The notes beneath the pieces were generated by a model that made no database searches, was not told the origin of the DNA, and saw nothing but the letters and a program-made list of their open reading frames with translations. From an uncultured Oscillospiraceae bacterium (GTDB taxonomy: Bacteria; Bacillota; Clostridia; Oscillospirales; Oscillospiraceae): a stretch of DNA of 49,954 nucleotides. Shown here one piece after another: positions 25,124 through 49,759 of the stretch. The stretch lies in NCBI GenBank assembly GCA_947626265.1, contig CANQRM010000022.1, positions 1-49,954 of the forward strand. The letters are read 5' to 3'. Position 1 is the stretch's first letter. Every line of letters begins with the position of its first letter. A program made the position numbers and the translations under genes.

Positions 25124-25136
25124 AAAAGAAAAAATA

Positions 25137-25264: not shown

Positions 25265-25286
25265 AAATAGATGAAAGAGCTATAAT
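25258..25286 (+). promoter_or_regulatory. promoter of the cell-wall-repeat transglutaminase gene
   Basis: TTGCAT (25258-25263), 17 nt, TATAAT (25281-25286). The leader contains a run of nine G (25305-25313) and is about 90 nt long. A hairpin-like TTGGGATGAAATGTCCCAA segment (about 25342-25360) precedes the ribosome binding site. Confidence 0.75.
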
Positions 25287-25379
25287 CAGTTGATTATTAT
25301 ACCCGGGGGGGGGTATTGTTCGTCTCCCTCGGGCTGTACTTTGGGATGAAATGTCCCAAGAAGGGAAGGAAACAGGAAA

Positions 25380-26996: not shown

Positions 26997-27020
26997 TCAA
27001 AAAGAAAGGAAGAGCGATCG

Positions 27021-27701: not shown

Positions 27702-27710
27702 GAGACTTCC

Positions 27711-28739: not shown

Positions 28740-28745
28740 CGCATC

Positions 28746-28778
28746 CGTGCGGCAGGGAGATCCTGCCGCACGCTTTTT
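28746..28778 (+). terminator. intrinsic terminator after the acyltransferase gene
   Basis: Perfect 11-bp stem CGTGCGGCAGG (28746-28756) with 28762-28772, 5-nt loop, CTTTTT. Confidence 0.92.
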
Positions 28779-28862
28779 ATGCCATCGGGGTTTTCTTTTC
28801 GTCCTTCGCGCAGTATAATAGCGTTGTTCCGTCCCAAACCGACATATGACAAGGAGGTCCAC

Positions 28863-30806: not shown

Positions 30807-30819
30807 AAAACAAAAGATA

Positions 30820-30853
30820 AGCGGCCCTGCCGGTGACGGTGGGGCCGCTTTTG
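30820..30853 (+). terminator. terminator after the NlpC/P60 gene
   Basis: 8-bp stem AGCGGCCC (30820-30827) with GGGCCGCT (30842-30849), an inner CCGGTGACGG loop, and TTTTG. Confidence 0.75.
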
Positions 30854-30917
30854 TGAGATAGTTCAATAATAAAATGGCAAATAAGGCGAATTTTGGGCTC
30901 GCTTTTTGGATGTAATA

Positions 30918-30926
30918 TGATATAAT
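30918..30926 (+). promoter_or_regulatory. extended -10 promoter element of the MFS/ligase/phosphatase operon
   Basis: TGATATAAT matches the extended -10 form TGnTATAAT and lies about 72 nt before the MFS start. No good -35 box sits at 16-18 nt, as is common for extended -10 promoters. The surrounding 80 nt are noticeably AT-rich. Confidence 0.5.
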
Positions 30927-30998
30927 CATAAAATGTGAAAAAGGCGGGGCCGGCTGAGAGGGCGCGGCCCCCGCTTCCCGGGCGGAGGGATATATAGT

Positions 30999-32888: not shown

Positions 32889-33820
32889 AAGTTGCCATTG
32901 TATACGGCGGGACGTCCAGCGAGGCGCATGCCTCCACGAAAAATGCCAGGAGCATCGAGAGCGTCCTGCGGCAGAAGGGCTACGACGTGTGCATGCTGGA
33001 GTACGGCCGGGACATGGTCCATACCCTGCGGGAAGAGAAGGCCGACATCGTGTACCTCTGTGTGCAGGGAAAGTACCACGGCGACGGCACGCTGCAGGCC
33101 ATGCTGGACCACGAGGGCATCCCCTATACCGGCAGCCGCACCCACGCGGCCATGCTCATCAATGATAAAATACTCTGCAAATTCCTCTTCGACCACTACG
33201 GCGTGCCCACGCCCCGGTGGACCATCCTGCGGAAGGAGGAATATGAGCGGGGAGACTTCGATTATTCCGCGCTGGGTTATCCTTTCGTGGCGAAGGCGCC
33301 CAGCCAGGGCGGCAGCTTCGGCATCGAGCTCATCCGCTCCCCGGAGGACCTGGGGAAGATGGCCCATGTGTTTCAGTATGACGACCCCATTCTCCTGGAA
33401 GAGTTCATCGACGGCGGGTTTTACACCGTGGGGCTCTTTGAGAAGGAGGGAAAGCTCATCACCCTCAAATGCGTGGAGGGGGTGGAGACCCTGTCCGGAG
33501 AACGGGTCCACAAGAAGAACGACCTGACGCTGTTCACCGGGGAATACGGCGTGGAGCCGCCGAAGCTGGATGAAAAGCTCCTGCACGAGATGGAGCGGAC
33601 GGCGGAGAAGGTATTCAAGATCACCAGCGCGAAGGATGTGGCCAGGGTGGACTTCATGGTGAGCCACGATGGCGGCGAGATCTACACATTGGAGATCAAC
33701 GCGGTGCCGGGACTGAAACGGGAGAGCCTGATGCCCCGGGAGGCGGAGTATAGCGGCATAGCCTACGAGGAAATGGTGGAGGACATATTGCTGTCCGCCT
33801 GGAACAGCAGGGAGGGATAA
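32885..33820 (+). CDS. ATP-grasp ligase related to D-alanine-D-alanine ligase
   Basis: 311 residues, the Ddl family length. Ddl-like features: VAIVYGGTSSEAHAS at the N-terminus, LINDKILCKFLFDHYGVPTP, the ATP-grasp loop VAKAPSQGGSFGIELI, and the metal site RVDFMVS...LEINAVPGL followed by LMPREAEYSGIAYEEMVEDI. The segment that is HGxxGEDGxxQ in true Ddl enzymes reads VQGKYHGDGTLQAML here, so substrate-site residues differ. It likely joins two amino acids or an amino acid and an amine with ATP, but D-Ala-D-Ala synthesis should not be assumed. GTG start at 32885 overlaps the MFS stop; the phosphatase follows 3 nt later. Confidence 0.8.
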   Translation: MKVAIVYGGTSSEAHASTKNARSIESVLRQKGYDVCMLEYGRDMVHTLREEKADIVYLCVQGKYHGDGTLQAMLDHEGIPYTGSRTHAAMLINDKILCKFLFDHYGVPTPRWTILRKEEYERGDFDYSALGYPFVAKAPSQGGSFGIELIRSPEDLGKMAHVFQYDDPILLEEFIDGGFYTVGLFEKEGKLITLKCVEGVETLSGERVHKKNDLTLFTGEYGVEPPKLDEKLLHEMERTAEKVFKITSAKDVARVDFMVSHDGGEIYTLEINAVPGLKRESLMPREAEYSGIAYEEMVEDILLSAWNSREG

Positions 33821-33823
33821 CAG

Positions 33824-36352: not shown

Positions 36353-36371
36353 GGATAGAAAGTGAATAAGA

Positions 36372-36427: not shown

Positions 36428-36467
36428 GGGCGGTTTCATGCTGCGCTGTTATTCTGCGTTCCGGTCA

Positions 36468-38276
36468 TCAGGCGTCCCCGTCTTGTCCCGGAGCGTCAAG
36501 GGAGTCAACAAGGCGCTTTATATCGATGACATATACCGGGGATACGTTCATCATGGTCATGCGATGCGTACTGCATGTGATGCATTCATGCCCTATGTTA
36601 AGAGGATTGTTCTTTTCTATGGGCGTTACTGTAATTCCCACATCCTCCAGCGAGGCAAGGTCATCGTCTGTGACTTCCCAGCAGACGATATAATCCATCT
36701 CGTCAAACATCTTTCTATAATCGCTGTAATCTTTTCTTATATTTTTCAGATGCGACTTGAATTCTATTATGACCTCCCGTTTCCTTTCCCCGCAGACCCA
36801 CTGCGCGGTGAGATCATATCGGTCGCGGTAGCCGGAAATCATCGGGATTACGTCCTTGATTTTGCCCATTCCGATCAGCTCATAAAAGATAGCGGCGACA
36901 GACGCCTCCTGATTCATCGGGGACTTTAAAAAGGGAAGTGAATTTGAGCCGATATCCAACAACCCGCGAACCGTGGTTATGTATGTAACCCTGTCCCAAT
37001 CGTCCTGACCGTTGATTGTATCGACATTCCCTGTTATATAGGCGCCAATTTCGCGGTGAAAACGGTTGAAGATACTTCTTGCGAAGTCCTGATACATGCT
37101 GACGGCCCGGCCGTATATGGATTTCCGTCCGATGTCAAATTTCAGCTGGTTGTCTTGAAAAAGAATGAAAATATTTGACCAGTATCCCGATGCGCCGGTC
37201 TTTGGCTGGCTGATCCTGATACCGGTGGGCATGTCCTTCACGACGGCGTAAATGCCCTCATGGAATAAAAGCTCCTCATGGTCTTCCGCCCAGCGCTCGT
37301 CCTTCTCGTCTTCCAGCTTCTTTTTAATAGCGGGATCAATGAATTCGGAAAGCGTATTCCAGGCCCTTGATGAGGGAACAAAACATGCCCAGTAATCTAT
37401 GGAGCGGTCAGAATTCCGCCCGATTTTCGCGTTTCCCCTGCAGAACACAATCTTATGCTTAAGCATATTGCGCTTTGCGTCGTCCGTTCGGTTCTGCTTC
37501 TGATACCACGCCTTATACACGTCAAGATCGAGGCAGCCATCCTCGCCCACGGCCTCTGTGGGAAGCATATATCTGAAGGGTATAATCTTATTGCCGGAGG
37601 AGCGGCCGTTTATATCGGTCATATCGAAACAGACGTTGATTTTAGGCGGCGCGTTCCGGGAATCGTTCCACAAAAAGGCCGTGCTGCCGACAGCGGTGCG
37701 CGTGCGGAGAACGTATTCCATCTGGGGGATTGTAAGAGAAAACAGGGCGTCGTTATCAATGCCCTTCAGATAGATTTTCGTGCCCCTGCAGGGCTCTTCG
37801 CTGGTGCTGAAGTCGAGCTTCGGCTCTTTGGTTTCATCGGAAGACTGCTTCCAAAGCCGCGCGTCCGTTATACGCGCGCTGGCCGTTCCCGTGGCATCGC
37901 CGGTTGTGATTTCAAAGAATGTACTTTGAAAATAGGCAAATGTCAATCCGACGCCTTTCTCTCCTATAAGGCGGGGGTCATCTGATTTGTTGGTGGAAAA
38001 GGGCTTGAGCAGAGGGCGAAGGTCAGAAGGGGGAATGCCGCAGCCGTCGTCCGTGATTTCAATTTCCTTTTTTTGGCAGTCGATTTTGATATCTATCCTG
38101 CCGGATATGGCCCTGCCCTCGTCGCTCGATCGTTTTATGATCGCGTCCACGGAGTTTTGAAGCAATTCGGCCAAAATGTCCCAATAGTTGTTGTAGCTGT
38201 CGTCAATATTGAGAATGCTCTTGCGAATGTTGCTGATGGTTGGGGACAGGAAACTATAAATGTTCTCTTCAGCCAT
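36468..38276 (-). CDS. GHKL-type ATPase with C-terminal PD-(D/E)xK-like domain, candidate defence protein
   Basis: 602 residues. The N-terminal Bergerat ATPase fold shows Glu 37 and Asn 41 in ELLQNSVDAI, DDGCGIP at 76-82 and GEKGVGLTF at 105-113, with RGTKIYLKG further on. This is the Hsp90/MutL/MORC-like arrangement. Near the C-terminus Asp 488 and Glu 505-x-Lys 507 in YDLTAQWVCGERKREVIIEF and the following KSHLKN resemble a PD-(D/E)xK nuclease core. MORC/MutL-like ATPases next to restriction systems have been predicted to remodel DNA for cleavage. GAGAGG precedes the ATG. Codon use is more AT-rich than the host genes. Function as an anti-phage effector is inferred from domains and neighbourhood. 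Confidence 0.75.
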   Translation of the reverse strand: MAEENIYSFLSPTISNIRKSILNIDDSYNNYWDILAELLQNSVDAIIKRSSDEGRAISGRIDIKIDCQKKEIEITDDGCGIPPSDLRPLLKPFSTNKSDDPRLIGEKGVGLTFAYFQSTFFEITTGDATGTASARITDARLWKQSSDETKEPKLDFSTSEEPCRGTKIYLKGIDNDALFSLTIPQMEYVLRTRTAVGSTAFLWNDSRNAPPKINVCFDMTDINGRSSGNKIIPFRYMLPTEAVGEDGCLDLDVYKAWYQKQNRTDDAKRNMLKHKIVFCRGNAKIGRNSDRSIDYWACFVPSSRAWNTLSEFIDPAIKKKLEDEKDERWAEDHEELLFHEGIYAVVKDMPTGIRISQPKTGASGYWSNIFILFQDNQLKFDIGRKSIYGRAVSMYQDFARSIFNRFHREIGAYITGNVDTINGQDDWDRVTYITTVRGLLDIGSNSLPFLKSPMNQEASVAAIFYELIGMGKIKDVIPMISGYRDRYDLTAQWVCGERKREVIIEFKSHLKNIRKDYSDYRKMFDEMDYIVCWEVTDDDLASLEDVGITVTPIEKNNPLNIGHECITCSTHRMTMMNVSPVYVIDIKRLVDSLDAPGQDGDA

Positions 38277-38323
38277 AACCCGGTACCTCTCTTTATCTGA
38301 TAATTATCAACTAGGGTACAATC

Positions 38324-38475: not shown

Positions 38476-38658
38476 TTATAATCTCATGAGATAAGATATA
38501 ACCGCGGTACGGATTTCTTCTGGGGAGCGTCCAACATCAATTATAGAAATTACATTTTGTTTGATTTCATCAGAATAATTCTGACTTCCTCTTACGATGC
38601 CCTTTAAGGTCTCCTTGTACAGATGTTCCTGTAGTTTCTCTTCTTCTATAGTACTCAT
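38476..38658 (-). CDS. small protein of unknown function downstream of hsdR
   Basis: 60 residues, rich in Glu/Lys/Ile and predicted helical (MSTIEEEKLQEHLYKETLKG ... SIIDVGRSPEEIRTAVISYL). No family recognised. GGAAGAG lies about 8 nt before the ATG, and the gene begins 17 nt after the hsdR stop in the same direction, which supports a genuine last gene of the restriction operon. It could be a small regulator or inhibitor of the restriction complex, but nothing in the sequence proves that. Confidence 0.5.
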   Translation of the reverse strand: MSTIEEEKLQEHLYKETLKGIVRGSQNYSDEIKQNVISIIDVGRSPEEIRTAVISYLMRL

Positions 38659-38675
38659 TTGATTTTCTCTTCCTT

Positions 38676-41600
38676 CTACGCCGCGGCGGCATTGGCGTTG
38701 ATACGGTCGATGACGCGCCGGATACCGGCCCAGACGGCGAGGTCCGTGAACACCTCTACGATACTGCCCTGGTCGGTGAAAGGGGGATCCTGCAGCACGG
38801 ACAGGTCCTTCATGAGCCCGTTGTGGACGATGTATTCCACGATTTGGTTGACGAAATATATCTGCCGGCTGTCAAGATTCGTGCCCTCCAGGTACTCCGA
38901 GAAGGCGGCCTTGGCGGCGTTCATATCCAGGCCCACGACCTCCCGGACGAATTCGCCCAGGGGCTTGGAGCCGTATTCCGCTTCATAATCCTCTTTCGTG
39001 CCCACCTCGCTCCAGAGGATAGCCTCCAACTGCTTCACATCAGCCTCGGTCAGAGGCACGTTGCTCCGCAGCTTGGCGATGGCGGCGTTGTCCGGATGCT
39101 GCCGCACATAATACTCCGCCTTGGCCCGGTAGTTTTTCAGCTCATCGCTGTCCAGCTCCGCGTCCTTCCACTCCATGGAGAGTATCTCGTCGGCGAAATC
39201 GGTGTCGTAGTGCAAATGGGGTTTTGGTATATATTTTATCAGGTCACGCAGGCACCGGCGGATGTGCTCGAATTCGTTGATGCCAGCGGTATCCAGATAG
39301 TCCGTGTGCAGGATGCGGTCGACGAGCTCTGCCTGCATCATAATCTCCGGGATGTTGGCGACGCCGGCCACGGCTCTGACCTTTTTCATCAGGTCGCTCC
39401 GGGCGCGGGCATATTTCTTCCCGGCGAGATACGCAAGCTCTATGCCGTACATCAGCGCGTCGAAGCGCAGAGCCTTGGGGTCATCCTGCTCCGGCTCGAT
39501 CAGCGGCGCCAGCTCCTCGCCCATGAGCAGCGTGTCCTCATAGGTCAGCGCCTGGTAGTTCTTCTCCTCTGCGTACAGCTCCACATATTTCAGGTGCTGC
39601 CGCACGGCGAAGTTCTCCCGGTTCAGCTGCCGCACCTTTCCCGCCATATCCTCTACCAGCGAGGCGCGGAACGTCGTGAGCTCCGGCGTCTGATAGGCCA
39701 GATTCTGCAGTTTGAAGGCGATCTGGGCTTTCAGATGGAAAAGGGCGCCGGACAGGGCCAGCATATTTTTTGAGGGCCGGCTGCCGCCCATGCGGAAGAA
39801 CGCAAAGTTGCCGCAGAAGTCGAAGATGTAAAACCTGCTCTTGTCCTCGCCGTCTATGAGCCCCGGGCACAGCCGGGTGCCCCGGCCGATCATCTGCCAA
39901 AACTTGGCCTTGCTCATGACCTTCTTGAAGAACACCAGGTTCAACACCTCCGGCACGTCGATGCCGGTGTCCAGCATATCCACGGAGATGGCGATCTGGG
40001 GCAGCTTTTTTGGGTCGGAGAACTCGTCGATGGCGCTTTGGGCGTAGTTGATGTAGTTGTCGATGACCTTGGCGTAGCCTGTGAGATGGGGGTATTCCTT
40101 GCCGAATATCTCCAATATTTTTTCCGCGTGGGTGTGGTTCTTCGCAAAGATGATGGTCTTGCCGATTTTATTGCCGTAGTCGATCTTCAAGCCCTCCGTC
40201 ATAAGAACGTGCAGCACCTGGCGGATGGTGTCCTCGTTGAATACCCACTCGTTCAGGGCGGAGGCGGCGATGCGCTCGGGCAGCTCCCCGTTCTCGTCCA
40301 CAAAGGTCTCCTCATAGGCTAGCTTATCCTCCTCAGAGAGGTCGTCGTATACGATGCCCTCCCGGACAAACTTCTGCTCTGCCTCCACCGAAACGAAGTC
40401 CACGAGATATCCGTCCTTCACCGCCTGGGCCAGCTCATAGCCATAGGTAGGCACACCGCTCTCCAGCTCGAATATCTCATAGGTGTTCTTGTCAATGTCG
40501 TCTTTGGGCGTGGCGGTCAGGCCCACCAGCGGCGCGTCGAAGTATGTAAAGATGTCCTTGTACTTGTTGTAGATGGAGCGGTGTGCCTCATCGCATATGA
40601 CCAGGTCGAAGTGGCCGCAGGTGAACAGCTTACCCTCCTCGTCCCGGGCCGCGTCGATGCAGTTCATCATGGTCTGGTAGGTGGAGAACACGCCGTGGGC
40701 GGTGTAATTATCCTTCTCCTCGCAGAGGTTCGTAACGGAGAGGTCGGGCAGAAGGTTTACAAAGCTGCGCTTGGCCTGGGTGACCAGACTGCTGCGGTCG
40801 GCCAGGAAGAGGACGTTCTTTATCCAGCCCTGCTCCAGCAGCACCTTCACCAGAGCGATGACCGTCCGGGTCTTGCCGGAGCCGGTGGCCATGACCAGCA
40901 GGGCCTTGCGGCGGTTCTTCCGCCCAAAGGCGTCGCACACCGCCTTGACGGCGCCCTCTTGGTAGTAGCGCCCGGCGATGGCCTTGTCTACTATGATATT
41001 CTTCAGGCCGGAGCGCATGGACTGGAGGTTAAAGAGCTTTTCCAGGTCCCGCTTGGAGTAGATGGCCGCCACCTTCCGCTCAGGGTACTGGTTGTCCACG
41101 ATGCGGGTCTCGAAGCCGTTGGTGAGGAACACCACCGGCCGGCGGCCCTGCCTTTTCTCGATGATGTCCGCATAGAGTTTCGCCTGCTGGCGGCCCTTGG
41201 ACACATCCACGCAGGTGCGCTTTGCCTCGATGACCGCCAGCGCCCGGCCGTCGCTGCCGTAGAGCACATAGTCGGCATAGCCCACCTCGCTCTGGTTGGG
41301 CATGCCAAGCAGTTCCACCTCGTTCAGCCAGTCTCGGCCCTCGGTCCAGCCCGCGTCGGTGAGCATGGCGTCGATGTAGAGCTTGCGGGTCGTGTACTCG
41401 GACAGATCCAGAGGCTTGGGCACATAGGTCTGCTGCTGCTGGGCCCGGCGGGCGGACAGTTCCTCCTTCAGGGCCCGGTTCTCCTCCATGAGCTTTTCCA
41501 GGTCCGCCTCCACCTCCGGCGGGACGGTGGGCGCGGCCTGTGACTCCTGCCGGAGGAGCGAGGGGTCAAATGTGCGCTCGGCGTAATCCTCCGCGTAGCA

Positions 41601-41969
41601 ATAGGCCACGAAGTCCAGGAACACGAACAGGTTTTCCAGGCACAGCTCCGCCTGCTCCCGGCTGACCTTCCGGCCGCTGTGGGCGGCGTTGTTGCCAACT
41701 TTGCGGATGAAGTTCATCCGCCGCCAGATGTCCGCGCCCACAATGTCCCGGAAGTCCTCGGCGTTCATGAGGCTGACCAGCGTGTCCTGCCAGGGCTTGT
41801 CCAGGGCCTTGTCTACGGAGTACATCCACTTCACGGCGAACTCCATCGCCCTGCGGCAGTTGAGCACGCAGGCGTCCAGATCCATATGCAGCAGCTTCTC
41901 CGCCGACGCCGCCACCTCCCCGAAGGGGGCGAAATCGGCGTCAGAGAGGAGAAAATCAAAGTTGGTCAT
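38676..41969 (-). CDS. hsdR: type I restriction enzyme R subunit (EcoEI-like)
   Basis: 1097 residues. An N-terminal DUF4145-like helical domain (about 1-135; RRAMEFAVKWMYSVDKAL) is followed by a short coiled coil. The nuclease domain has ADYVLYGSDGRALAVIEAKRT (PD-(D/E)xK type). Helicase domains show VMATGSGKTRTVIALVKVLL, CDEAHRSIYNKY, VGLTATPKDD and MIGRGTRLCPGLIDGE, and the C-terminal part is EcoEI R-like. HsdR translocates and cuts unmodified DNA as part of R2M2S. AAGGAGG lies 8 nt before the ATG but is sealed in a perfect inverted repeat. The gene is GC-rich, in contrast to the DUF2806 and S genes just upstream. Confidence 0.95.
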   Translation of the reverse strand: MTNFDFLLSDADFAPFGEVAASAEKLLHMDLDACVLNCRRAMEFAVKWMYSVDKALDKPWQDTLVSLMNAEDFRDIVGADIWRRMNFIRKVGNNAAHSGRKVSREQAELCLENLFVFLDFVAYCYAEDYAERTFDPSLLRQESQAAPTVPPEVEADLEKLMEENRALKEELSARRAQQQQTYVPKPLDLSEYTTRKLYIDAMLTDAGWTEGRDWLNEVELLGMPNQSEVGYADYVLYGSDGRALAVIEAKRTCVDVSKGRQQAKLYADIIEKRQGRRPVVFLTNGFETRIVDNQYPERKVAAIYSKRDLEKLFNLQSMRSGLKNIIVDKAIAGRYYQEGAVKAVCDAFGRKNRRKALLVMATGSGKTRTVIALVKVLLEQGWIKNVLFLADRSSLVTQAKRSFVNLLPDLSVTNLCEEKDNYTAHGVFSTYQTMMNCIDAARDEEGKLFTCGHFDLVICDEAHRSIYNKYKDIFTYFDAPLVGLTATPKDDIDKNTYEIFELESGVPTYGYELAQAVKDGYLVDFVSVEAEQKFVREGIVYDDLSEEDKLAYEETFVDENGELPERIAASALNEWVFNEDTIRQVLHVLMTEGLKIDYGNKIGKTIIFAKNHTHAEKILEIFGKEYPHLTGYAKVIDNYINYAQSAIDEFSDPKKLPQIAISVDMLDTGIDVPEVLNLVFFKKVMSKAKFWQMIGRGTRLCPGLIDGEDKSRFYIFDFCGNFAFFRMGGSRPSKNMLALSGALFHLKAQIAFKLQNLAYQTPELTTFRASLVEDMAGKVRQLNRENFAVRQHLKYVELYAEEKNYQALTYEDTLLMGEELAPLIEPEQDDPKALRFDALMYGIELAYLAGKKYARARSDLMKKVRAVAGVANIPEIMMQAELVDRILHTDYLDTAGINEFEHIRRCLRDLIKYIPKPHLHYDTDFADEILSMEWKDAELDSDELKNYRAKAEYYVRQHPDNAAIAKLRSNVPLTEADVKQLEAILWSEVGTKEDYEAEYGSKPLGEFVREVVGLDMNAAKAAFSEYLEGTNLDSRQIYFVNQIVEYIVHNGLMKDLSVLQDPPFTDQGSIVEVFTDLAVWAGIRRVIDRINANAAAA

Positions 41970-41984
41970 AGGAGGGCACCTCCT
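41970..41984 (-). promoter_or_regulatory. hairpin sequestering the hsdR ribosome binding site
   Basis: On the minus strand AGGAGG-TGC-CCTCCT directly precedes the hsdR ATG. The left arm is the Shine-Dalgarno sequence itself and the right arm ends one base before the start codon region. The stem would lower HsdR synthesis unless ribosomes finishing the DUF2806 gene, whose TAA overlaps it, open it. Confidence 0.55.
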
Positions 41985-42961
41985 TATGATTTTTGAAAAA
42001 CTTTTATGGGTTCGGATTCGTAACTAGTTGTAGTACCATGAATCGATTGGACCTTGTGTATAGATATATTAACGGGATACTTTGAAAAAAACTCTTCGGC
42101 TAAATTGATAACGTATTCTCTTCTTTCGCCAGTATCTATGATGCTTAATAATTCCATGCCGGCTGTGGTTAATGAGTAAACTCCGGGAGAAAAACTGATT
42201 TCATTATCACTAAGTCCTGATACTTTAATCAAATAGTCTTTACTGCGTATATTTACCTCTCTAAATGAAATGACTTTGTAGTTTAGAGCGATATGCTCAT
42301 TTGAAATAATCAAGCCGCAATCATCAAGCAATTGAATATTAGAATAGTAAACACTATGGCGCTTCAAAAAATCTTGATTAGATAGGATAAAGCCCAATTC
42401 TCCGGCCATCATCACAAGTGGGGCAACTTTTTGGAACACTTCTGCCTCTGCTCTAGAAAGGCTTTTAATAACTTCCAGCGTTCTTAAAGAAAAACTTCCG
42501 GGCTGCTTGATTTCTCCAGAAAGAATCTTGCTCCATATGAATTGCAGCTCTTCGGAACTTATATCTTTTGAAATGTCGAAGAATCGTGTTATCCAGTCAT
42601 CATCAACCGGCGCATCAGAAACAGGCTCATCACTAATTTGAGCGATTTCATTTGCAGCAAACTGAAGTACATTCTCTATGTTTTGCTCTCGGCGAATAGA
42701 GTCTGCAATTTGCCTCTGCTGTGCGCGGAAAGCAAGTGCTTCGGGAGTACGCTCACGAGCGTTTAGTTCTCCATTGATATAGACTATCTCCATATCTGGG
42801 TTATCACGAATAGTTTGCAGTTTCCTTTCATCTGCATATGCGTCTGCCTCAGCTTGTTTCTTTGTCCACCGCGGGCCTTTGATTCTTTGGATTATTTCCG
42901 CGAATTTGTTTGCTGCCTTGGCAGTTTCAGCGGTAGCTTCAATTAAAGATTCTGGATCCAT
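41984..42961 (-). CDS. DUF2806 domain-containing protein inside the type I RM operon
   Basis: 325 residues. The central part (WITRFFDISKDISSEELQFI then WSKILSGEIKQPGSFSLRTL) and the preceding FAANEIAQISDEPV segment are typical of DUF2806 proteins. The N-terminus is a charged helical stretch (KGPRWTKKQAEADAYADERK). No catalytic motif is visible. GAGGAG precedes the ATG at 42961. Base composition is strikingly AT-rich, like hsdS and unlike hsdM and hsdR. Its placement between S and R suggests an accessory or regulator of the restriction complex; the biochemical role is unknown. Confidence 0.75.
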   Translation of the reverse strand: MDPESLIEATAETAKAANKFAEIIQRIKGPRWTKKQAEADAYADERKLQTIRDNPDMEIVYINGELNARERTPEALAFRAQQRQIADSIRREQNIENVLQFAANEIAQISDEPVSDAPVDDDWITRFFDISKDISSEELQFIWSKILSGEIKQPGSFSLRTLEVIKSLSRAEAEVFQKVAPLVMMAGELGFILSNQDFLKRHSVYYSNIQLLDDCGLIISNEHIALNYKVISFREVNIRSKDYLIKVSGLSDNEISFSPGVYSLTTAGMELLSIIDTGERREYVINLAEEFFSKYPVNISIHKVQSIHGTTTSYESEPIKVFQKS

Positions 42962-42976: not shown

Positions 42977-44137
42977 TTATCCAAAATATTTCTGCATCAG
43001 GCTGTCGAAGAGCAGCTGGGCCTTATCCAGCGCGTTCTGTACGGCGGCTTTTGATTTTTCGACTTGGGAAACAAACGTGTAAAATGATTCTTGAATGTGA
43101 ATTGGTGGCAGAATAATATTGGTGTTAAGAATGCCGTCTTGACTGATTGTAGTCATTGTTGCTGTTTTTGCATGCCTGAGTACTTGGTGCCTATAGTAGT
43201 CAGTGGTGGTTAGTACTTGGATAAACTCTGGGACACAAATATCCGTGTTTAAAGGTACTCGAATCACATGACATTCAAAAACCGTGTTATTTGGCACATC
43301 CTTTGGAACAATAGATGCTTTCCCGATGCCTTCTGCTACGAGAGATGAACGGCAGAATAAGACATCTCCATATTGTAATTTTAATTTTTTGATGTTGTCA
43401 TCCGTTATATTTGTTTTCGGTAATCCATCACACTGAGAATACATGCGATTTACCACATTTGCAACGCCTAAAATAGAAGCATTTCCAGTGTTTGTATATT
43501 CTTCCCGTTTTGCAAAATACCCGTTTGAAGCTTTTTCTCTGATCACCTCGGAAAGTTGCACTTGTGGCCATTTCAGGGGGTTCTGTATCGGTTCCCCAAA
43601 CATCTCAACAAATCGGGCTTTGACGAGTTCGTCCAGCTTCACGAGTTGCTGCTTGTAAAGAAGAGTAAGCTTACTAATGCTATTTGTAACATCTACAATT
43701 TCCTGTTGTTTTACTAACGAGGGAAGAGGAATCTCTTTATTTAGCAAATCCTTAGTGCCCAGCCGAGGCATCTTTGCACCTGCGGTTTTTGATGATGCCC
43801 ATGTGGCAAAACAGTTTGAACGAAGATATATAGCTAAGTACTCTCTAGTAATAATATCAACATTTGGACGTAACGGCAACATCTCTGAAGTGGCGTATCC
43901 AGCCTGCAGAGGGAGCACTACCTTATTAAGGTTGGGACGTAGTTTAGAATATAAAACATTTCCGGTGTCAAATTGAATAATTGAACCGTTCAGTTCTTTC
44001 TTTGAAACATAGTTGTATGCAAGAATATTACCCGTCTTCTGCTCGACCATATCCAAATTCAACAACCACACCTGCTCGTTGGTATTCTCTAACGTGCTAG
44101 GCGAAACGGTTACAATATCTCCTAGCCTTGCCATCAC
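42977..44137 (-). CDS. hsdS: type I restriction-modification specificity subunit S
   Basis: 386 residues with the two target-recognition domains and the conserved spacer helices. TRD1 is about 1-135, followed by IPLPSLVKQQEIVDVTNSIS and VKARFVEMFGEP; TRD2 is about 180-330, then IILPPIHIQESFYTFVSQVE and AQLLFDSLMQKYFG. HsdS chooses the bipartite recognition sequence for M and R. The GTG at 44137 overlaps the hsdM stop; the adjacent ATG at 44134 is an equal alternative. It is AT-rich relative to hsdM, a common sign of recombined specificity genes. Confidence 0.93.
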   Translation of the reverse strand: MMARLGDIVTVSPSTLENTNEQVWLLNLDMVEQKTGNILAYNYVSKKELNGSIIQFDTGNVLYSKLRPNLNKVVLPLQAGYATSEMLPLRPNVDIITREYLAIYLRSNCFATWASSKTAGAKMPRLGTKDLLNKEIPLPSLVKQQEIVDVTNSISKLTLLYKQQLVKLDELVKARFVEMFGEPIQNPLKWPQVQLSEVIREKASNGYFAKREEYTNTGNASILGVANVVNRMYSQCDGLPKTNITDDNIKKLKLQYGDVLFCRSSLVAEGIGKASIVPKDVPNNTVFECHVIRVPLNTDICVPEFIQVLTTTDYYRHQVLRHAKTATMTTISQDGILNTNIILPPIHIQESFYTFVSQVEKSKAAVQNALDKAQLLFDSLMQKYFG

Positions 44138-45630
44138 AACATCGCCTCCAGCTCATCCATCGTCCTGCCGACCTCGGCTTCCAGCGCCCGCAGCTCCGCC
44201 ATGATCTCGCTTGTGGGCGGGTACTCCACGGGGACATACTCGGTCTTTTTGTACTTGTTGATGGAGAGGTCATAGTCGTTCCCGGCGATCTCATCCCTGG
44301 GGACCAGGAAGCTTTGGTCCGTGCGGGCGCGGGACGCCTCCGCAGCCAGATCATGGAACCGGGCCACGACATCGGGGATGTCGTTTTCCTTGGTGGGCGT
44401 GCGCTTGTCATCCAGGCTGAACCCGTCGGCCCGCATGTCGTAAAACCATACCTTATCCGTGCCGCCGTGGCCGGTCTTGGTGAATACCAGCACGGCGGTG
44501 GACACGCCGGCATAGGGCTTGAATACCCCGGAGGGCATGGATACCACGGCCTCCAGGCGGTTGTTCTCAATGAGCTCTTTACGAATGGCCCTGTGGGCGG
44601 TGGAGGAGCCGAACAGCACCCCGTCCGGGACGATGCAGGCGCAGCGGCCGCCTACCTTCAGCATCCGCAGAAACAGCGCCAAAAACAGCAGCTCCGTCTT
44701 TTTCGTCTTGCAGACCTTTAAGAGGTCCGCGCTGACGATGTCTGCGTCCAGGCTGCCCTTGAAGGGGGGATTGGCCAGGATGAGGGAATACTTCTCCCGG
44801 TCCGGGTTCTGGTCGCTGAGGCTGTCCCGGTACTCGATGAAGGGGTTGTCCACGCCGTGGGTCATCATGTTCATGGCGCCGATGCGGAGCATGGTCCGGT
44901 CCATGTCGTAGCCGTGGAACATGTGGTTCATGTAGTGGTCCATATGTCGGCGGTCAAAAAACACGTCCGCCTTGCGGTTTTCCTTCAGGTAGTCGCTGAC
45001 GGCCACCAGGAACCCGGAGGTGCCGCAGGCCGGGTCGCAGACCGTGTCGTCCGGCTCGGGCCGGAGCATGTCCACCATCATGCGGATGATGTGCCGGGGT
45101 GTACGGAACTGGCCGTTGACGCCGGCAGTGGAGAGCCTGGACAGGAGATATTCATACACGTCGCCCCGCACGTCGGCGGACTGGACCTGTTCCATCTGGG
45201 CATAAATGCCATCCATGGCCGTGACCACCTTGTCCAGGATCAGCGGCGTGGGCAGCTTGAAGATGGCGTCGGACATATACTTGGAATAGGCGCTCTCCTT
45301 GTCCCCGTGCAGCTCCTTGATGAAGGGAAACACCCATTCCTGAACGACGGAGTACATCTGCGCCGCAGGGAAATCGTGGAACGTGCTCCATTTGAGCTGG
45401 CTGCCGTCGATGGTGCGGCCGCCCAGATGTACCTCCGGGGGGAACATGCTCTCATAGGGCAGGCCCAGCATGGCGCTCTCCAAAGACCGGCGCCTGTCCG
45501 CCTCGTCAAGGTCGTGGATGAACATGAGGTAGGTCATCTGTTCGATCACGTCCAGGGGGTTGGTGAGCCCGCCGGTCCAGAATATCTCCCAGAGGCTGTC
45601 GATTTTGTTTTTCAGCTCGCCTGTTACCAT
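44134..45630 (-). CDS. hsdM: type I restriction-modification N6-adenine methyltransferase subunit M
   Basis: 498 residues. An N-terminal helical HsdM_N domain (LWEIFWTGGLTNPLDVIEQM) precedes the methyltransferase, with SAM-binding motif I DPACGTSGFLVAV and catalytic motif IV LILANPPFKG. GQFRTPRHIIRMMVDML is the typical HsdM lead-in. It methylates adenine in the sequence defined by HsdS. GGGAGAGAG lies upstream inside the end of fic, whose stop is one base from this start, so the two are cotranscribed. Confidence 0.96.
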   Translation of the reverse strand: MVTGELKNKIDSLWEIFWTGGLTNPLDVIEQMTYLMFIHDLDEADRRRSLESAMLGLPYESMFPPEVHLGGRTIDGSQLKWSTFHDFPAAQMYSVVQEWVFPFIKELHGDKESAYSKYMSDAIFKLPTPLILDKVVTAMDGIYAQMEQVQSADVRGDVYEYLLSRLSTAGVNGQFRTPRHIIRMMVDMLRPEPDDTVCDPACGTSGFLVAVSDYLKENRKADVFFDRRHMDHYMNHMFHGYDMDRTMLRIGAMNMMTHGVDNPFIEYRDSLSDQNPDREKYSLILANPPFKGSLDADIVSADLLKVCKTKKTELLFLALFLRMLKVGGRCACIVPDGVLFGSSTAHRAIRKELIENNRLEAVVSMPSGVFKPYAGVSTAVLVFTKTGHGGTDKVWFYDMRADGFSLDDKRTPTKENDIPDVVARFHDLAAEASRARTDQSFLVPRDEIAGNDYDLSINKYKKTEYVPVEYPPTSEIMAELRALEAEVGRTMDELEAML

Positions 45631-45631
45631 G

Positions 45632-46690
45632 TCAATCTCTCTCCCTGTTCCATGTGTATGCGGTGTAGCGCCCGCCGCCCAGCTTGATGACCTGGCCGGA
45701 CTTTACCAGCTCGTTCAGCGCCCGCTGCACCGTGATCTGAGCGACGTCCGGGCATTTTATCATGATCTCTGCCTTTGTGATCTTTCCCAGCGTCCCCTTG
45801 ATGACCTCCCGCACCCGGTCGGGCTTGGACAGTTCCGGGTCGGTCAAAAGCTGCGCCCGGTCGTTGAACTCCCGATAGGCCGCAGCCACCACGCCCAGCA
45901 TATACCGGGCAAAGGGGGCGTAATCGTTGGCCTCCTCATGCCAGCGGTCAGAGCTCTCCTGCAGCACCTCGTAATAGGTCTCCTTGGATGTCTCAATGAG
46001 CCGCTCGATGGAGATATATCTTCCTACTGCATAGCCGGCCCGGTAGAGGAGCAGCAGTGTCAGCAGCCTGCTCATACGGCCGTTGCCGTCGTTGAAGGGG
46101 TGGATGCAGAGAAAGTCCAGGATAAACATGGGCATGAGCAGCAGCGGGTCCAGGGCCGGGTCCCGCAGGGCCTCGTCGTATGCCGCGCACAGCCGGTCCG
46201 TGGCCTCTGAGGCCTCCCACGCGGGGACGGGCTGGAAACGCACCGCCTTGTTCCCATCGGCGTCCATTTCCTCAATGATGTTATCGGAATTCTTATAGTG
46301 CCCGCCGATGGAGAGACCGCTGTATTTATAGAGATCCCGGTGGAGCTGCAAAATGACAGAGGGCCGGAGGGGGATATAGTCGTGACTTTCGTGGATGGTA
46401 GCCAGAACATCCCGATATCCGGCGATCTCCTTTTCGCCGCGGGTCTTGGGCATGGTTTTCTCCCGCACGATCTTCTTCAGCCGCTCGTCCGACGTGTAGA
46501 TGCCCTCAATCTTGTTGGATGCCTCGGTGCTCTGGATCTTGGCGATCTCCACTAGTTGGGTGAGCGTGTCCTCTTTGGTTCCCATGAGTTTGGCTTGTTC
46601 GCCCTTGAACTCGTGGATCTGGGACAGCAGCGCCACGATGTCGGGGACGAGAAGGGCGTCATATTTGCTTATAAAGTCGTAATTACGCAT
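45632..46690 (-). CDS. Fic family protein (predicted AMP transferase) leading the RM operon
   Basis: 352 residues. The Fic active-site motif is HPFNDGNGRMSRLL (His 197 to Arg 205), and an N-terminal inhibitory-helix motif S58-x-x-x-E62-G63 is present in EASNKIEGIY, so it is a self-inhibited class II Fic. The C-terminus (about 285-352) is a winged helix-like domain (KITKAEIMIKCPDVAQITVQ, ALNELVKSGQVIKL). Such proteins transfer AMP to target proteins in the cytoplasm, and the wHTH may bind the repeated boxes around its own promoter. It is the first gene of the restriction operon; AGGTGA precedes the ATG. Confidence 0.9.
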   Translation of the reverse strand: MRNYDFISKYDALLVPDIVALLSQIHEFKGEQAKLMGTKEDTLTQLVEIAKIQSTEASNKIEGIYTSDERLKKIVREKTMPKTRGEKEIAGYRDVLATIHESHDYIPLRPSVILQLHRDLYKYSGLSIGGHYKNSDNIIEEMDADGNKAVRFQPVPAWEASEATDRLCAAYDEALRDPALDPLLLMPMFILDFLCIHPFNDGNGRMSRLLTLLLLYRAGYAVGRYISIERLIETSKETYYEVLQESSDRWHEEANDYAPFARYMLGVVAAAYREFNDRAQLLTDPELSKPDRVREVIKGTLGKITKAEIMIKCPDVAQITVQRALNELVKSGQVIKLGGGRYTAYTWNRERD

Positions 46691-46811: not shown

Positions 46812-46865
46812 AGAGCCGCCGGATGACCGGCAGATCTATTCATTAGACGTATATCACCTGCTCAT
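46812..46865. repeat. right copy of the 54-bp imperfect direct repeat
   Basis: Pairs with 36374-36427 (42 of 54 identical, no gaps). It includes a degenerate terminator hairpin (GCCGG-ATGA-CCGGC) and the last seven codons of tnpV. Confidence 0.8.
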
Positions 46866-47220
46866 ACACGATCTCCTCTGCGCGGTGGCGGATGCTGTTC
46901 ATGCGCTGCACCCACTGCATTTGGTCTGTGGCTTTTAGCGCTTCCGTTACCTGTTCCTGCTCTGCCGTCTGGGTCACTAGCTGAAAGAGGAGAGAGCGGG
47001 CTTGCTCGTCTACTGCCGCCAGGTGTCTGTTCAGTTGGCAGGTGGTGAGAAGATAGGAGTAGGTGCCGCGCCGGTGCTGCTGCAGGAACTGCAGGCGGCG
47101 CCGGCCCCACGCCCCTATGGGCTTTTCTTCTTCGGCTGGTAGTGTTCTGTCCGGGACATAGTAGTCCTCCTGGAGCGTGTAGATGGTGCCGGTCTGTTCG
47201 TCAACATAGTGCTTTTTCAT
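46843..47220 (-). CDS. tnpV: TnpV family transposon-encoded protein
   Basis: 125 residues. The pattern MKKHYVDEQTGTIYTLQEDY, LPAEEEKPIGAWGRRRLQFL, RGTYSYLLTTCQLNRHL and a C-terminal IVYEQVIYV matches the TnpV proteins known from the Tn4451-type mobilisable elements of Clostridia. Their role is not established, possibly accessory to excision. The ATG at 47220 gives the family-typical start; sequence further upstream in frame is the multi-hairpin element and is not expected to be coding. It marks the accessory segment as mobile-element DNA. Confidence 0.85.
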   Translation of the reverse strand: MKKHYVDEQTGTIYTLQEDYYVPDRTLPAEEEKPIGAWGRRRLQFLQQHRRGTYSYLLTTCQLNRHLAAVDEQARSLLFQLVTQTAEQEQVTEALKATDQMQWVQRMNSIRHRAEEIVYEQVIYV

Positions 47221-47267
47221 GTTCTTATCCGTCCTTTCAAAATCGATGTAGACTTGACTGCTATATA

Positions 47268-47385
47268 CCAACAAGCATCGTGTTTTGGGGACAAAACACA
47301 GGCTTTTGGGATATCCCAAGCCCTTAGAGGTTTCAGGATGCCTCCTGAAAGGTGTTTGTGGGAGCACAAACACGATGCTTGTTGG
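47268..47385. repeat. 118-bp element: 15-bp inverted repeat enclosing four hairpins (candidate oriT or small mobile/regulatory element)
   Basis: CCAACAAGCATCGTG (47268-47282) and its exact complement (47371-47385) bracket four self-complementary units: GTGTTTTG-GGGA-CAAAACAC (47280-47299), GGCT(TT)TGGGAT/ATCCCAAGCC (47301-47322), TTTCAGGA-TGCC-TCCTGAAA (47331-47350) and GTGTTTGTG-GGAG-CACAAACAC (47352-47373). The first and last hairpins compete with the outer stem, giving alternative folds. It sits between a MobC-like gene and tnpV. Confidence 0.8.
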
Positions 47386-47398
47386 GTAATCACATTTG

Positions 47399-47722
47399 TC
47401 ATGTTTCTCTCCTCATGCCGTCCATGATGGCTGCGATCATTTGTATCGTTTCCAGCAGTTCGCCGTCAACGCTGGCGCCGTTTTCGATGCGGCGAAGTTG
47501 GTCCAAAACGGCAGCCAGTTGATCACGCAGGGCCTTGTAGACTTTTGGATTTCCCTGCACTACCACTGCCCGGCATAAGAGCCGGTCGGTGATGTAGTCC
47601 TGCTTCGTCAGCCCGGACAGGCGTACCGCCGTGTCGATCTGGGCGCTTTCCTCCGGGGAAACGCGGAAGGCGACGGTCTTGCTCCGCCAGCGGTTATTTC
47701 TGTCGAGATTCTTATGGGACAT
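47399..47722 (-). CDS. MobC/ribbon-helix-helix-like mobilisation accessory protein
   Basis: 107 residues. NRWRSKTVAFRVSPEESAQIDTAVRLSGLT read as the start of a ribbon-helix-helix fold (quoted here in two parts: NRWRSKTVAFRVSPEE and SAQIDTAVRLSGLTKQDY), followed by a helical C-terminus (ALRDQLAAVLDQLRRIENGA). This is the general form of plasmid mobilisation accessory proteins found beside integrase genes in Firmicute elements. AAAGGAG precedes the ATG at 47722, which lies inside the end of the integrase gene. A DNA-binding role at the adjacent multi-hairpin element is plausible but not shown. No relaxase is in the window. Confidence 0.6.
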   Translation of the reverse strand: MSHKNLDRNNRWRSKTVAFRVSPEESAQIDTAVRLSGLTKQDYITDRLLCRAVVVQGNPKVYKALRDQLAAVLDQLRRIENGASVDGELLETIQMIAAIMDGMRRET

Positions 47723-48808
47723 TTCCGGCTCCTTTCCCTGTGCGCTCCATGTCCAGCCGGTCGGCCATCTCCGTCTGCCGGGTGGGGAACAGATGGGCGT
47801 AGCGGTAGGTGATGTCGATGCTCTCGTGGCCCACTCGCTCGGCAATGGCCAGAGCGGTGAAACCCATATCTATGAGCAGGGAAACATGGGAGTGGCGCAG
47901 GTCGTGTATCCTGATCCGCTTGACGCCGGTGGCCTTGCAGCCGCGTTCCATTTCATGCTTCAGGTAGTGTTTGCTGATGGGAAATATCCTGTCTGTTTCC
48001 CCGGCGCTGTAGAACATTTTGAAGTAATCCTGCATCTCGTCACAGAGAAATTTTGGCATGGATATGACCCGGTTGCTCTTTCGGGTTTTGGGCTGGTGAT
48101 CACATCCTGGCCCTTCAGCCGCTGATACGATTTGGTGATGGAGACTGTTCCGGCTTTGAAGTCAAAATCCGATGGCGTGAGCGCCAGTAGCTCGCCCTCC
48201 CGGATGCCGCACCAGTAGAGCATCTCAAAAGCGTAATAGGAAAGAGGCTTGTCCATCATGGCGTCCGCGAAACGCAGATATTCCTCCTTTGTCCAGAACT
48301 GCATCTCCTGCCGCTCCTTCTCACCCATGGCGCCGGCCTTTGCTGCGGGGTTGGCTTGTAGACCGTAGTAGCGGACAGCATGGTTGAAGATGGCGCTCAA
48401 CTGATTGTGGATAGATTTAAGATAAGTGGGAGAGTAGAGCTTGCCGCTGGGGGCTGTCTGGGAACGCATCTCGTTCTGCCATGCCAGCACATCTTTGGCC
48501 GTTATTTCGGACAGCCGGCGCTGTCCGAAATAGGGCAGGAGTTTCTTCTGGATGACGCTCTCCTTGGACAGCCATGTGTTCAGCTTGAGCTTGGATTTGA
48601 CGTCCCGTTCATATAGCTGGACAAAGCTCGCAAAGGTCATGTTCACATCTGCCTGTTTCTGCATGAGAAACTCCCGTTCCCAGGCCTGGGCATCCCGTTT
48701 GGTGCGCAGGCCGCGCTTGCATTTCTGCTTGCGCTCGCCCCTCCAGTCCGTGTACCGGCACATGACGTACCATGTGCCATTTTTGTCCCGATAGACCGGC
48801 ATTTTCAT
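47712..48808 (-). pseudogene. int: tyrosine recombinase/integrase, interrupted by a frameshift
   Basis: The N-terminal part (48808 down to about 48090) has an AP2-like arm-binding region (MPVYRDKNGTWYVMCRYTDW), a SAM-like core-binding domain and the first catalytic Arg in YWCGIREGELLAL. The C-terminal part (47712 to about 48085) has HDLRHSHVSLLIDMGF, HESIDITYRYAHLF and the Tyr. The two lie in different frames; restoring one A in the A4 run at 48086-48089 (minus strand) would join VITSPK to TRKSNRVISMPKFLCDEM. The catalytic set R-H-R-H-Y is otherwise complete. AAAGGAG precedes the ATG, which overlaps the excisionase stop. Confidence 0.88.
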
Positions 48809-49005
48809 CTGCTCCTTTCATGGTGGTCTTTGGTGCTGTAAAACTGCTCGTGGAAAAACTTACGGTCGATCCGGCCTGCAATGGTGATACAGCCGGTCTT
48901 TTTCAGCTCTTCATTCATAGCCCGTATGAGTTTATATGCGTAGGGGATGGAAACACCCAGCTCCTCCGCGACTTCATTCACTCGCATGAACATCGTTCCC
49001 GCCAA
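48805..49005 (-). CDS. xis: excisionase-like helix-turn-helix protein
   Basis: About 66 residues: MFMRVNEVAEELGVSIPYAY (start region and recognition helix), KLIRAMNEELKKTG, CITIAGRIDRKFFHEQFY. This is the MerR/Xis-type HTH used by many Firmicute integrative elements to direct excision. The TTG at 49005 is chosen because AGGAGAAC lies just upstream; ATG codons at 48993 and 48987 are alternatives. The stop overlaps the integrase start (ATGA). Its promoter carries two repressor-type operators. Confidence 0.8.
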   Translation of the reverse strand: MAGTMFMRVNEVAEELGVSIPYAYKLIRAMNEELKKTGCITIAGRIDRKFFHEQFYSTKDHHERSR

Positions 49006-49023
49006 ATTGTTCTCCTCCCTCGC

Positions 49024-49146
49024 TAAACTGTTTTGTTTAATAATTATTATACTAAACATATTTGTTTCGTCAAGCTTTGAGAGATATAAATTTAAACTTT
49101 TTCGTTTAATATTCTCTTGACGCGCCTTAAACGTATATGTTATACT
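49024..49146. promoter_or_regulatory. divergent xis/XRE promoters with four TAAAC-N6-GTTTA operators
   Basis: Operators: O1 TAAACTGTTTTGTTTA (49024-49039), O2 TAAACATATTTGTTTC (49053-49068), O3 TAAACTTTTTCGTTTA (49093-49108), O4 TAAACGTATATGTTAT (49128-49143). The minus-strand promoter toward xis is TTGACG (49068-49073), 16 nt, TATAAT (49046-49051), with O2 filling the spacer and O1 just downstream. The plus-strand promoter is TTGACG (49117-49122), 18 nt, TATACT (49141-49146), with O4 in the spacer and O3 upstream. One repressor could thus silence both directions. Confidence 0.8.
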
Positions 49147-49182
49147 GCGCTCAGCATGATTTGCTGGATGGGAGATGCTGAT

Positions 49183-49716
49183 ATGGCGATAGGGGAGCGG
49201 ATACATTTCTTCCGCACACTGCGGGGCATGACGATGAAGTATCTTGGCATGGCGGTGGGGTTCCCGGAAAAAACCGCTGACGTTCGCCTGGCCCAGTATG
49301 AGTCCGGCACAAGGACGCCGAAAGCGGAACTGACCCGGACCCTGGCGTCTGCGTTGGACGTGTCGCCGCTGGCGCTGGATGTGCCGGATATAGACAGCCA
49401 TCTTGGCCTTGCTCATACGCTGTTCGCGCTGGAGGACATCTATGGCCTCGGCGTGGGTGAGCTTGACGGTGAGGTGTGCCTGCGGCTGGACAAGTCCAGG
49501 GGTACGACCTATGTTGAGCTTTTTGACCTGCTCACAGCATGGCAGAAGCAAGCTGCTAAGCTGGCGGCAGGGGAGATCACAAAAGAAGACTATGATAGAT
49601 GGCGTTATCGCTACCCGGAATTTGACACGGAAAACATCTGGGGCAAGATCCCGTCCGAGGAGTTCAGTGATGCGGTGCAGCGGGGTGTAAAGAAACGCGG
49701 CCGAAAAGATGAATAA
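49183..49716 (+). CDS. XRE-family transcriptional regulator of the integrative element
   Basis: 177 residues. The N-terminal HTH is MAIGERIHFFRTLRGMTMKY, LGMAVGFPEKTADVRLAQYE and SGTRTPKAELTRTLASALDV; the C-terminal part (about 75-177) is of unknown fold with ALEDIYGLGVGELDGEVCLR. GGGAG precedes the ATG at 49183; an earlier in-frame TTG coincides with the promoter -35 box and cannot be the start. It is divergent from xis-int, the classic place for the element's master repressor, and probably binds the TAAAC-N6-GTTTA sites around it and at the two att-like sites. Confidence 0.85.
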   Translation: MAIGERIHFFRTLRGMTMKYLGMAVGFPEKTADVRLAQYESGTRTPKAELTRTLASALDVSPLALDVPDIDSHLGLAHTLFALEDIYGLGVGELDGEVCLRLDKSRGTTYVELFDLLTAWQKQAAKLAAGEITKEDYDRWRYRYPEFDTENIWGKIPSEEFSDAVQRGVKKRGRKDE

Positions 49717-49718
49717 CA

Positions 49719-49759
49719 AAAAGCGGACCTGCTGATACCGAATCAGCAGGCCCGCTTTT
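49719..49759 (+). terminator. intrinsic terminator after the XRE gene
   Basis: Long stem AAAGCGG-A-CCTGCTGAT with ATCAGCAGG-C-CCGCTTT (about 49719-49736 with 49742-49759), one mismatch, 5-nt loop, T-rich end. Confidence 0.85.

Follow-up and report, generated by a model that had tools for sequence, protein, structure and literature searches.

A GHKL ATPase joined to a PD-(D/E)xK-like domain beside a type I restriction-modification operon: a candidate single-gene, mobile defence nuclease

The stretch of DNA analysed here (the window) comprises 49,954 nucleotides of contig CANQRM010000022.1 (assembly GCA_947626265.1) from an uncultured Oscillospiraceae bacterium. Our subject is a gene on its minus strand that encodes a protein of 602 amino acids (aa), with an N-terminal GHKL ATPase domain and a C-terminal domain that resembles PD-(D/E)xK nucleases (Table 1). 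Along the minus strand, the genes follow one another in the order Fic, hsdM, hsdS, DUF2806, hsdR, a 60-aa open reading frame (ORF) and the GHKL gene. A reading made from the letters alone, without database searches (the sequence-only reading), had placed a GHKL ATPase with a nuclease-like C-terminus beside a type I restriction-modification (R-M) operon. Its E37, N41, DDGCGIP, GEKGVGLTF, D488 and E505-x-K507 all lie at the residues it named, in agreement with the ORF and the Pfam GHKL matches, and the operon is real, with library matches for hsdR, hsdS and hsdM.

Table 1. Features of the GHKL gene and of its surroundings, in window positions.
Feature	Position	Strand	Basis or remark
GHKL ATPase + PD-(D/E)xK-like protein, 602 aa, ATG start	36468..38276	minus	ORF; Pfam HATPase_c_3/HATPase_c; relatives align full length
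GHKL ATPase domain, residues 32-144	37845..38183	minus	Pfam match
N-box E37..N41	38154..38168	minus	E37 and N41 in 13/13
DDGCGIP, residues 76-82, G1-type box	38031..38051	minus	D76, G78, G80 in 13/13
GEKGVGLTF, residues 105-113, G2-type lid box	37938..37964	minus	G105, K107, G108 in 13/13
D-x-GRKS, residues 381-386, candidate basic finger of S5-like second domain	37119..37136	minus	putative role
C-terminal PD-(D/E)xK-like domain, residues ~440-590	36507..36959	minus	Y487, D488, E505, K507 invariant; fold predicted
D488	36813..36815	minus	14/14
E505-F-K507	36756..36764	minus	E505 and K507 in 14/14
60-aa small ORF between hsdR and GHKL gene	38476..38658	minus	apparently part of R-M unit
hsdR, type I restriction subunit; neighbour, outside module	38676..41969	minus	library matches
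DUF2806 gene, hsdS-hsdR slot	41984..42961	minus	Pfam; TIGR03899 below its cut-off
hsdS	42977..44137	minus	library matches
hsdM	44134..45630	minus	library matches
Fic protein, upstream of hsdM, same strand	45632..46690	minus	library matches
TnpV, tyrosine-integrase-like and excisionase-like genes (mobile-element context)	46843..49719	minus	Pfam; ICEBs1 excisionase model below cut-off

Pfam recognises the N-terminal domain through HATPase_c_3 (residues 32-144; 42.8 bits against a cut-off of 25) and HATPase_c (residues 35-114; 41.4 bits against 26.4). The features that define the GHKL superfamily, namely an N-box with Glu and Asn, DxGxG and a glycine-rich lid, are all present, and E37, N41, D44, D76, G78, G80, K97, G105, K107 and G108 are among the columns shared by all 13 rows of an N-terminal alignment. 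Further along, D381, G383, R384 and K385 occur in 12 of the 13 rows, the last row being a piece of an interrupted copy (L005) that ends before these residues. K385 is not universal, because a later piece of L005 has GRED there. Compared with its 92%-identical relative L006, the gene shows a nonsynonymous divergence (dN) of 0.043 and a synonymous divergence (dS) of 0.70 as a whole, 0.042 and 0.79 over residues 1-440, and 0.044 and 0.51 over the C-terminal part after residue 440. Because dN is low relative to dS in both parts, both halves are selected as protein: in this one pair, purifying selection acts on the ATPase and on the C-terminal half alike. The gene has a G+C content of 49.6%, the window as a whole one of 60.5%. 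A promoter scan gave 4 against 3.7 in shuffles and a terminator scan 6 against 2.6, and we concluded nothing from either.

The C-terminal domain carries the sequence signature of PD-(D/E)xK nucleases, a conserved D followed by E-x-K. Among 14 members whose pairwise identity falls to 14-20%, only Y487, D488, E505 and K507 are invariant; the conservation of D488, E505 and K507 in homologues had been named beforehand as a test, and it held in all 14. F464 and K522 are found in 13 of these rows, and Q456-E457 and E466 are invariant among the nine closer members, not across the wide set. The interrupted copies L005 and L012 entered the alignment by their own C-terminal pieces only, and three were excluded: L014 (a C-terminal remnant near L003), L016 (an N-terminal remnant) and L002 (partial, at a contig end). 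By eye, the order of the motifs, a likely helix, D488, the strand with E505-x-K507, another likely helix and a hydrophobic VCW strand, would fit a PD-(D/E)xK core.

Database searches returned matches to the ATPase half. The C-terminal part had no Pfam match, either in a scan of the full-length protein (E ≤ 0.1) or with the last 163 residues alone (E ≤ 10), and of ten family C-termini scanned in Pfam seven gave nothing and three gave weak matches (best E 0.039), with no nuclease among them. Searched against the Protein Data Bank (PDB), a profile of the C-terminal domain had no hit at E ≤ 10, the single sequence found histidine kinases only, and a full-length profile gave 162 matches, all to the Hsp90 family among the 60 matches listed. 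The 33 NCBIfam matches were below threshold, and among the 25 listed all fell in the N-terminal half (sacsin-like, Hsp90-like, MutL and histidine kinases). In PADLOC only the GHKL part of the TmtA models matched. PHROGs yielded topoisomerase- and kinase-type GHKL matches along with families of unknown function, and a few weak ones outside the GHKL part, such as phrog_37158 (residues 240-344, E 0.0022) and phrog_3630 (residues 476-496, E 0.023). Since the nuclease domain has no match in the versions of Pfam, NCBIfam and PADLOC that we searched, pipelines using them would probably miss it. A literature search, outside which lay the Mol Cell 2025 Shedu survey, found no description of this C-terminal nuclease family; a figure legend in the accessible part of the DefensePredictor paper names HATPase (PMC13092281).

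One alternative is that the protein is a divergent Shedu (SduA), that is, an ordinary GHKL-Shedu member whose nuclease has drifted past recognition. GHKL-SduA proteins have the two-part layout in common with ours and are of similar length (581-587 aa in those fetched), both carry D and E-x-K, and the accessible part of the report on the Shedu protein VcSduA ties paraMORC3-like proteins to Shedu (PMC12137116; statements from this paper here and below refer to that part). We collected Shedu nucleases through SduA_C matches in 4 of 249 and 18 of 247 genomes, among which L063 is a GHKL fusion, and further GHKL-nuclease proteins from plasmids; one fetched sequence went unused (L069, match in two pieces), and plasmids gave nothing in a megablast with a Shedu locus as query. 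An hhalign panel then compared 24 SduA_C sequences, 3 GHKL-SduA C-termini, the C-termini of 4 other GHKL proteins (L071-L074), 14 members of the present family and 10 HsdR N-termini. As positive controls, SduA_C joined the GHKL-SduA C-termini at 96.6% and those of L071-L074 at 95.7%. The present family reached 0.1% with SduA_C, 0.2% with L071-L074 and 0.1% with the HsdR N-termini, within the range of its negative controls (0.1-1.6%, the upper value from an unrelated control). The best of its four nuclease-set scores, 3.0% (E 0.015), was with the GHKL-SduA C-termini, E-x-K being placed on E-x-K. With 32 sequences combined in a joint profile the score was 0.3%, and an unfiltered hmmsearch, in either direction, found nothing above the inclusion threshold (best domain E 0.016, in L063).

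These scores have limits on both sides. SduA_C and the HsdR N-termini are two known nuclease sets, yet they miss each other at 0.7% (GHKL-SduA against HsdR gave 21.6%), so a missing signal is weak evidence and does not disprove a shared fold. SduA_C (PF14082), the domain that marks a Shedu protein, has no Pfam match in the 602-aa protein, and plain Shedu was rejected on this ground; the Pfam absence is not decisive, as L071, L072 and L074 also lack the match yet join SduA_C by hhalign (as a set with L073). At full length, the family aligns with GHKL-SduA proteins over the GHKL domain only (86.9%). Over this domain another set reached 97.9%, which is not an independent comparison because that set included L075, later counted as a family member; the Shedu side of the 0.1-3.0% panel and of the 0.3% joint profile was free of L075. 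By these comparisons the C-terminus of the family is not a recognisable Shedu domain, and we consider it unlikely that the protein is simply a drifted Shedu.

Relatives of the gene are scattered over distant hosts. Full-length relatives lie on plasmids of Lactiplantibacillus (28% identity) and Priestia (25%), and more distant members on Rhizobium rhizogenes and Halobacterium plasmids. A scan of genome contigs, which rests on short peptide patterns and gave at least nine loci, added a 92%-identical relative in an Acetatifactor metagenome-assembled genome (MAG), and relatives of 41-44% identity in MAGs of an archaeon, a bacterium, Ignavibacteria, Bacteroidetes (two) and Aquimarina. The copy found in Flavobacterium is interrupted, and that of Lentilactobacillus is a remnant. 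Viral contigs gave no relative with the single protein or A1 as query and two with A3, one at 32-34% identity and one an N-terminal remnant; a phage collection had no match. The archaeal-MAG copy and the bacterial L008 share 59% identity along the whole protein and 66% in the C-terminal part, and both are farther from the window. That the archaeal-MAG copy is nearer to L008 than to the window suggests transfer of the gene between domains, a binning error of the MAG contig being an alternative.

Within any one group the gene is rare. A protein search was positive in 2 of 99 relatives' genomes, counting the window's own, and in at least 1 of 391 genomes of the class, which was the window's own only. 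In the phylum, a profile search matched at least 14 of 398 genomes, and beyond the GHKL part only the window's own; these class and phylum counts are lower bounds, as mostly the three best candidates per genome were scored. A C-terminal profile found 1 of 247 genomes in the phylum of a Bacteroidota relative, namely the seed itself. We tallied 17 places in all (the window, L002-L016 and L075), in categories that overlap and with flanks of different length. Four copies are plasmid-borne (L003, L004, L005, L075), two lie on viral contigs (L015, L016), and four are broken or remnants (L005, L012, L014, L016). The plasmid and viral copies, the patchiness and the broken copies form a pattern of frequent gain and loss rather than housekeeping, and the gene was thus probably often gained and lost. 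On the presence of defence neighbours, which the sequence-only reading had set against a housekeeping spread, the outcome speaks partly against that reading: R-M genes lie within 10 kb in only 4 of the 17 places (window, L004, L075, L016), and about seven relatives look by eye like lone genes among mostly ordinary ones. A gene of L011 adjoining the GHKL relative is presumably transposase-like, and L007 has what we take to be a possible toxin-antitoxin pair nearby.

Two of these places deserve description. On viral contig L015 (8869-10692), the GHKL relative stands, by eye, after an amidase-like gene and before an integrase fragment on the opposite strand, a usual place for prophage cargo. On viral contig L016 (8284-12256), the row consists of an N6/N4 methyltransferase, a BglII-type endonuclease, the N-terminal GHKL remnant and a Schlafen group 3 helicase.

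The same distribution bears on a second alternative, raised for standalone paraMORC3 proteins by Iyer et al. (PMC2292703), in which the protein would descend from an R-M ancestor and now serve in MutL-like DNA repair or in the handling of chromosomes. Several relatives do stand alone among ordinary-looking genes, and MutL likewise combines a GHKL domain with a nuclease. Against this, the gene is rare and patchy at every level searched, it occurs on plasmids and viral contigs, and nearly a quarter of the copies are broken. A repair role is less fitting because greater stability would be expected of a repair gene, and we regard it as improbable.

The relation of the gene to its R-M neighbour can be read from loci in which one occurs apart from the other. 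L006 shares with the window only positions 36440-38292 (87% nucleotide identity), that is, the GHKL gene alone; its contig, of just 8.9 kb, continues downstream with a gene for an HNH protein and shows no R-M gene. A sister genome of the same genus, G027, aligns with the window over 23880-36361 and then over 38496-41987 (hsdR, 91% nucleotide identity), and between the aligned blocks a different, unrelated 502-aa gene (L089 12601-14109) replaces the GHKL gene. Neither Pfam, at its cut-off, nor PADLOC has a match for this gene; we take a DGQH stretch in it to recall DGQHR-domain proteins, no family matching above cut-off. Fifteen genomes had an hsdR match, and 13 loci were read, namely those of the window and G027 and 11 fetched ones, without G056 and G094. 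The GHKL gene is absent from the stretch read in 12 of the 13, leaving the window as sole carrier, and the constant hsd association expected of a type I R-M accessory subunit was not found. Since gene and operon occur apart, the operon is not an obligate partner; the GHKL gene moves alone, as a single-gene unit. That the protein is instead an accessory subunit of the neighbouring R-M machine, such as a looping or cleavage helper needing HsdR, HsdM or HsdS, is very improbable and was rejected because gene and operon are found apart, although the gene lies on the hsdR strand about 400 bp after hsdR and most MORC/paraMORC proteins are held to belong to R-M systems (PMC2292703).

The R-M loci themselves vary at two places. 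Cargo-like genes follow hsdR on its strand, as judged by eye, in 3 of the 13 loci (window, G027, G092), and the remaining loci show ordinary-looking chromosomal genes or spurious frames downstream of hsdR, G006 having only 1.4 kb on that side. At least one extra gene lies between hsdS and hsdR in all 11 loci in which both were seen, and this gap is a changeable cargo slot. Its contents (L107-L115, L089 and window 41984-42961) include two cases each of DUF2806 and of a 410-aa family, one match each to AbiH and PDC-S47, and unknowns. Of nine non-GHKL proteins of these loci searched in PADLOC, four matched (PDC-S47, AbiH, a PD_DExK model and DUF4238-Pers). The 60-aa ORF after hsdR recurs in two further members of the genus, L089 (89% over 54 residues) and L110 (93% over 60), and in part in L116 (17 residues); 12 loci were searched, and the remaining 9 lacked it. 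The Fic protein encoded ahead of hsdM has counterparts of 88-90% identity at three further loci of the genus and one of 62% in L111 (loci L107, L108, L110, L111). Elsewhere in the window, a blast against the sister contig revealed an internal repeat within a long ORF at about 25646-26438.

Behind the related hsdR of G092 (L114 462-4009), a 210-aa gene, a gene for a DUF5655/NucS_C protein and a gene for a 662-aa GHKL protein with a Shedu-like C-terminus lie on one strand. The C-terminus of this GHKL protein scores by hhalign 80.6% with GHKL-SduA, 90.1% with L071-L074, 26.5% with SduA_C and 0.3% with the present family; in Pfam it has no SduA_C, only a sub-threshold HSDR_N_2. As the L114 and window proteins share their layout and have unrelated nuclease sequences, they make a same-layout pair in comparable places, one case each.

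Taken together, we consider it probable that the 602-aa protein is an ATP-gated clamp nuclease, encoded by a single horizontally mobile gene, that acts in defence against phages, plasmids or both. We observed directly that the ATPase motifs are intact and conserved, that the D/E-x-K site is conserved, that both halves are under selection, that the gene is mobile by itself and that another gene takes its place at an R-M locus; from sequence and analogy we infer the nuclease fold, DNA cutting, the dimer clamp, its trigger and host protection. Of the original proposal of a single-gene defence system, the GHKL ATPase, the D/E-x-K signature, the single-gene module and its mobility thus stand, and a defence function is plausible by analogy. 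GHKL proteins dimerise on ATP binding. From such established GHKL biology and from the VcSduA model we propose a gated dimer clamp, in which the GHKL domain would bind ATP and dimerise, and dimerisation would close a clamp formed with the S5-like middle region bearing the conserved GRKS. An invader-specific DNA or protein cue would prompt closure, the closed clamp would license the metal-dependent C-terminal domain (D488, E505, K507) to cut DNA, and ATP hydrolysis would reset it.

Several observations weigh against the idea of a defence nuclease. The C-terminal domain has no convincing match to a known nuclease family among Pfam, NCBIfam, PADLOC and PDB sequences, and its profile comparison with nucleases of the Shedu type stays at background level. 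Thirteen of the 17 places showed no R-M gene close to the GHKL gene, and the lone-looking genes number about 7 of 17 (L007-L013), their neighbours being judged by eye from the first 70 residues, except for one L010 gene that was run against Pfam. Of ten neighbour proteins from the R-M loci, PADLOC left five unmatched, the G027 replacement among them. The L114 parallel is a single case, with two genes between it and hsdR and an SduA_C score of just 26.5%.

It is tempting to speculate, at somewhat less than an even chance, that single-gene defence enzymes arose by fusion of a GHKL clamp to a PD-(D/E)xK nuclease on two or more independent occasions, once with the Shedu nuclease and once with the unnamed Y-D...E-x-K...VCW family, and that both kinds of fusion can sit as cargo at comparable places behind hsdR. 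If so, the GHKL clamp would be a portable, ATP-dependent module for sensing and licensing, and the gene would represent a separate, unlisted defence family. A rare family spread across bacteria and at least one archaeal MAG would then join the GHKL-nuclease defence enzymes, and two enzymes with a common clamp and different cutters would allow GHKL sensing to be compared directly. Besides the hsdS-hsdR gap, the changeable place behind hsdR could be a spot in which to look for further unlisted defence genes.

Several known proteins share part of this architecture. TmtA of PADLOC-DB has the GHKL domain in common, with about 100 of 1655 profile positions matching and a very different size. The restriction enzymes BbrUII/HgiDII likewise have a GHKL-like N-terminus, yet NF050001 scores 15 bits against a cut-off of 550. 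MutL too has a GHKL ATPase followed by a nuclease, but the NCBIfam mutl model reaches 27.7 bits against 180, in the GHKL part only, and a MutL identity was rejected on that score. Further GHKL proteins near R-M genes are described in the accessible part of another paper (PMC8011034).

The closest counterparts are paraMORC3 and VcSduA, and the sequence-only reading, which knew of no named defence system built from exactly these two parts, was mistaken on that point: both have it. The layout is therefore already known, and what appears to differ is the sequence family of the nuclease. ParaMORC3, as defined by Iyer et al. in 2008, consists of GHKL and S5 domains and a C-terminal domain of restriction-endonuclease (RE) fold with E-D-ExK; a subset is standalone in Proteobacteria and Bacteroidetes, and the MORC family has a GhXhhpXXRhl motif in its S5 domain (PMC2292703). 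Compared by description, our protein has the GHKL domain, a proposed S5 domain and the C-terminal D and E-x-K; for the first Glu of paraMORC3 the candidates, E457 and E466, are invariant only in the nine closer members. VcSduA, described in 2025, combines GHKL with DUF4263 and protects E. coli and V. cholerae from phage, and proteins like it were formerly annotated as paraMORC3 (PMC12137116). Unlike VcSduA, whose nuclease is DUF4263/SduA_C, the present protein does not match SduA_C and scores at background in the profile comparisons, other GHKL-SduA proteins having stood in for VcSduA in these comparisons. Like VcSduA, it joins an N-terminal GHKL ATPase and a C-terminal predicted PD-(D/E)xK domain with its putative catalytic Lys in one gene, and the anti-phage action demonstrated for VcSduA would extend to it by analogy. 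Both active sites of VcSduA are needed, its E27A and K557A variants being inactive, and these variants are the counterpart of the E37A/K507A phage test suggested for the 602-aa protein (PMC12137116).

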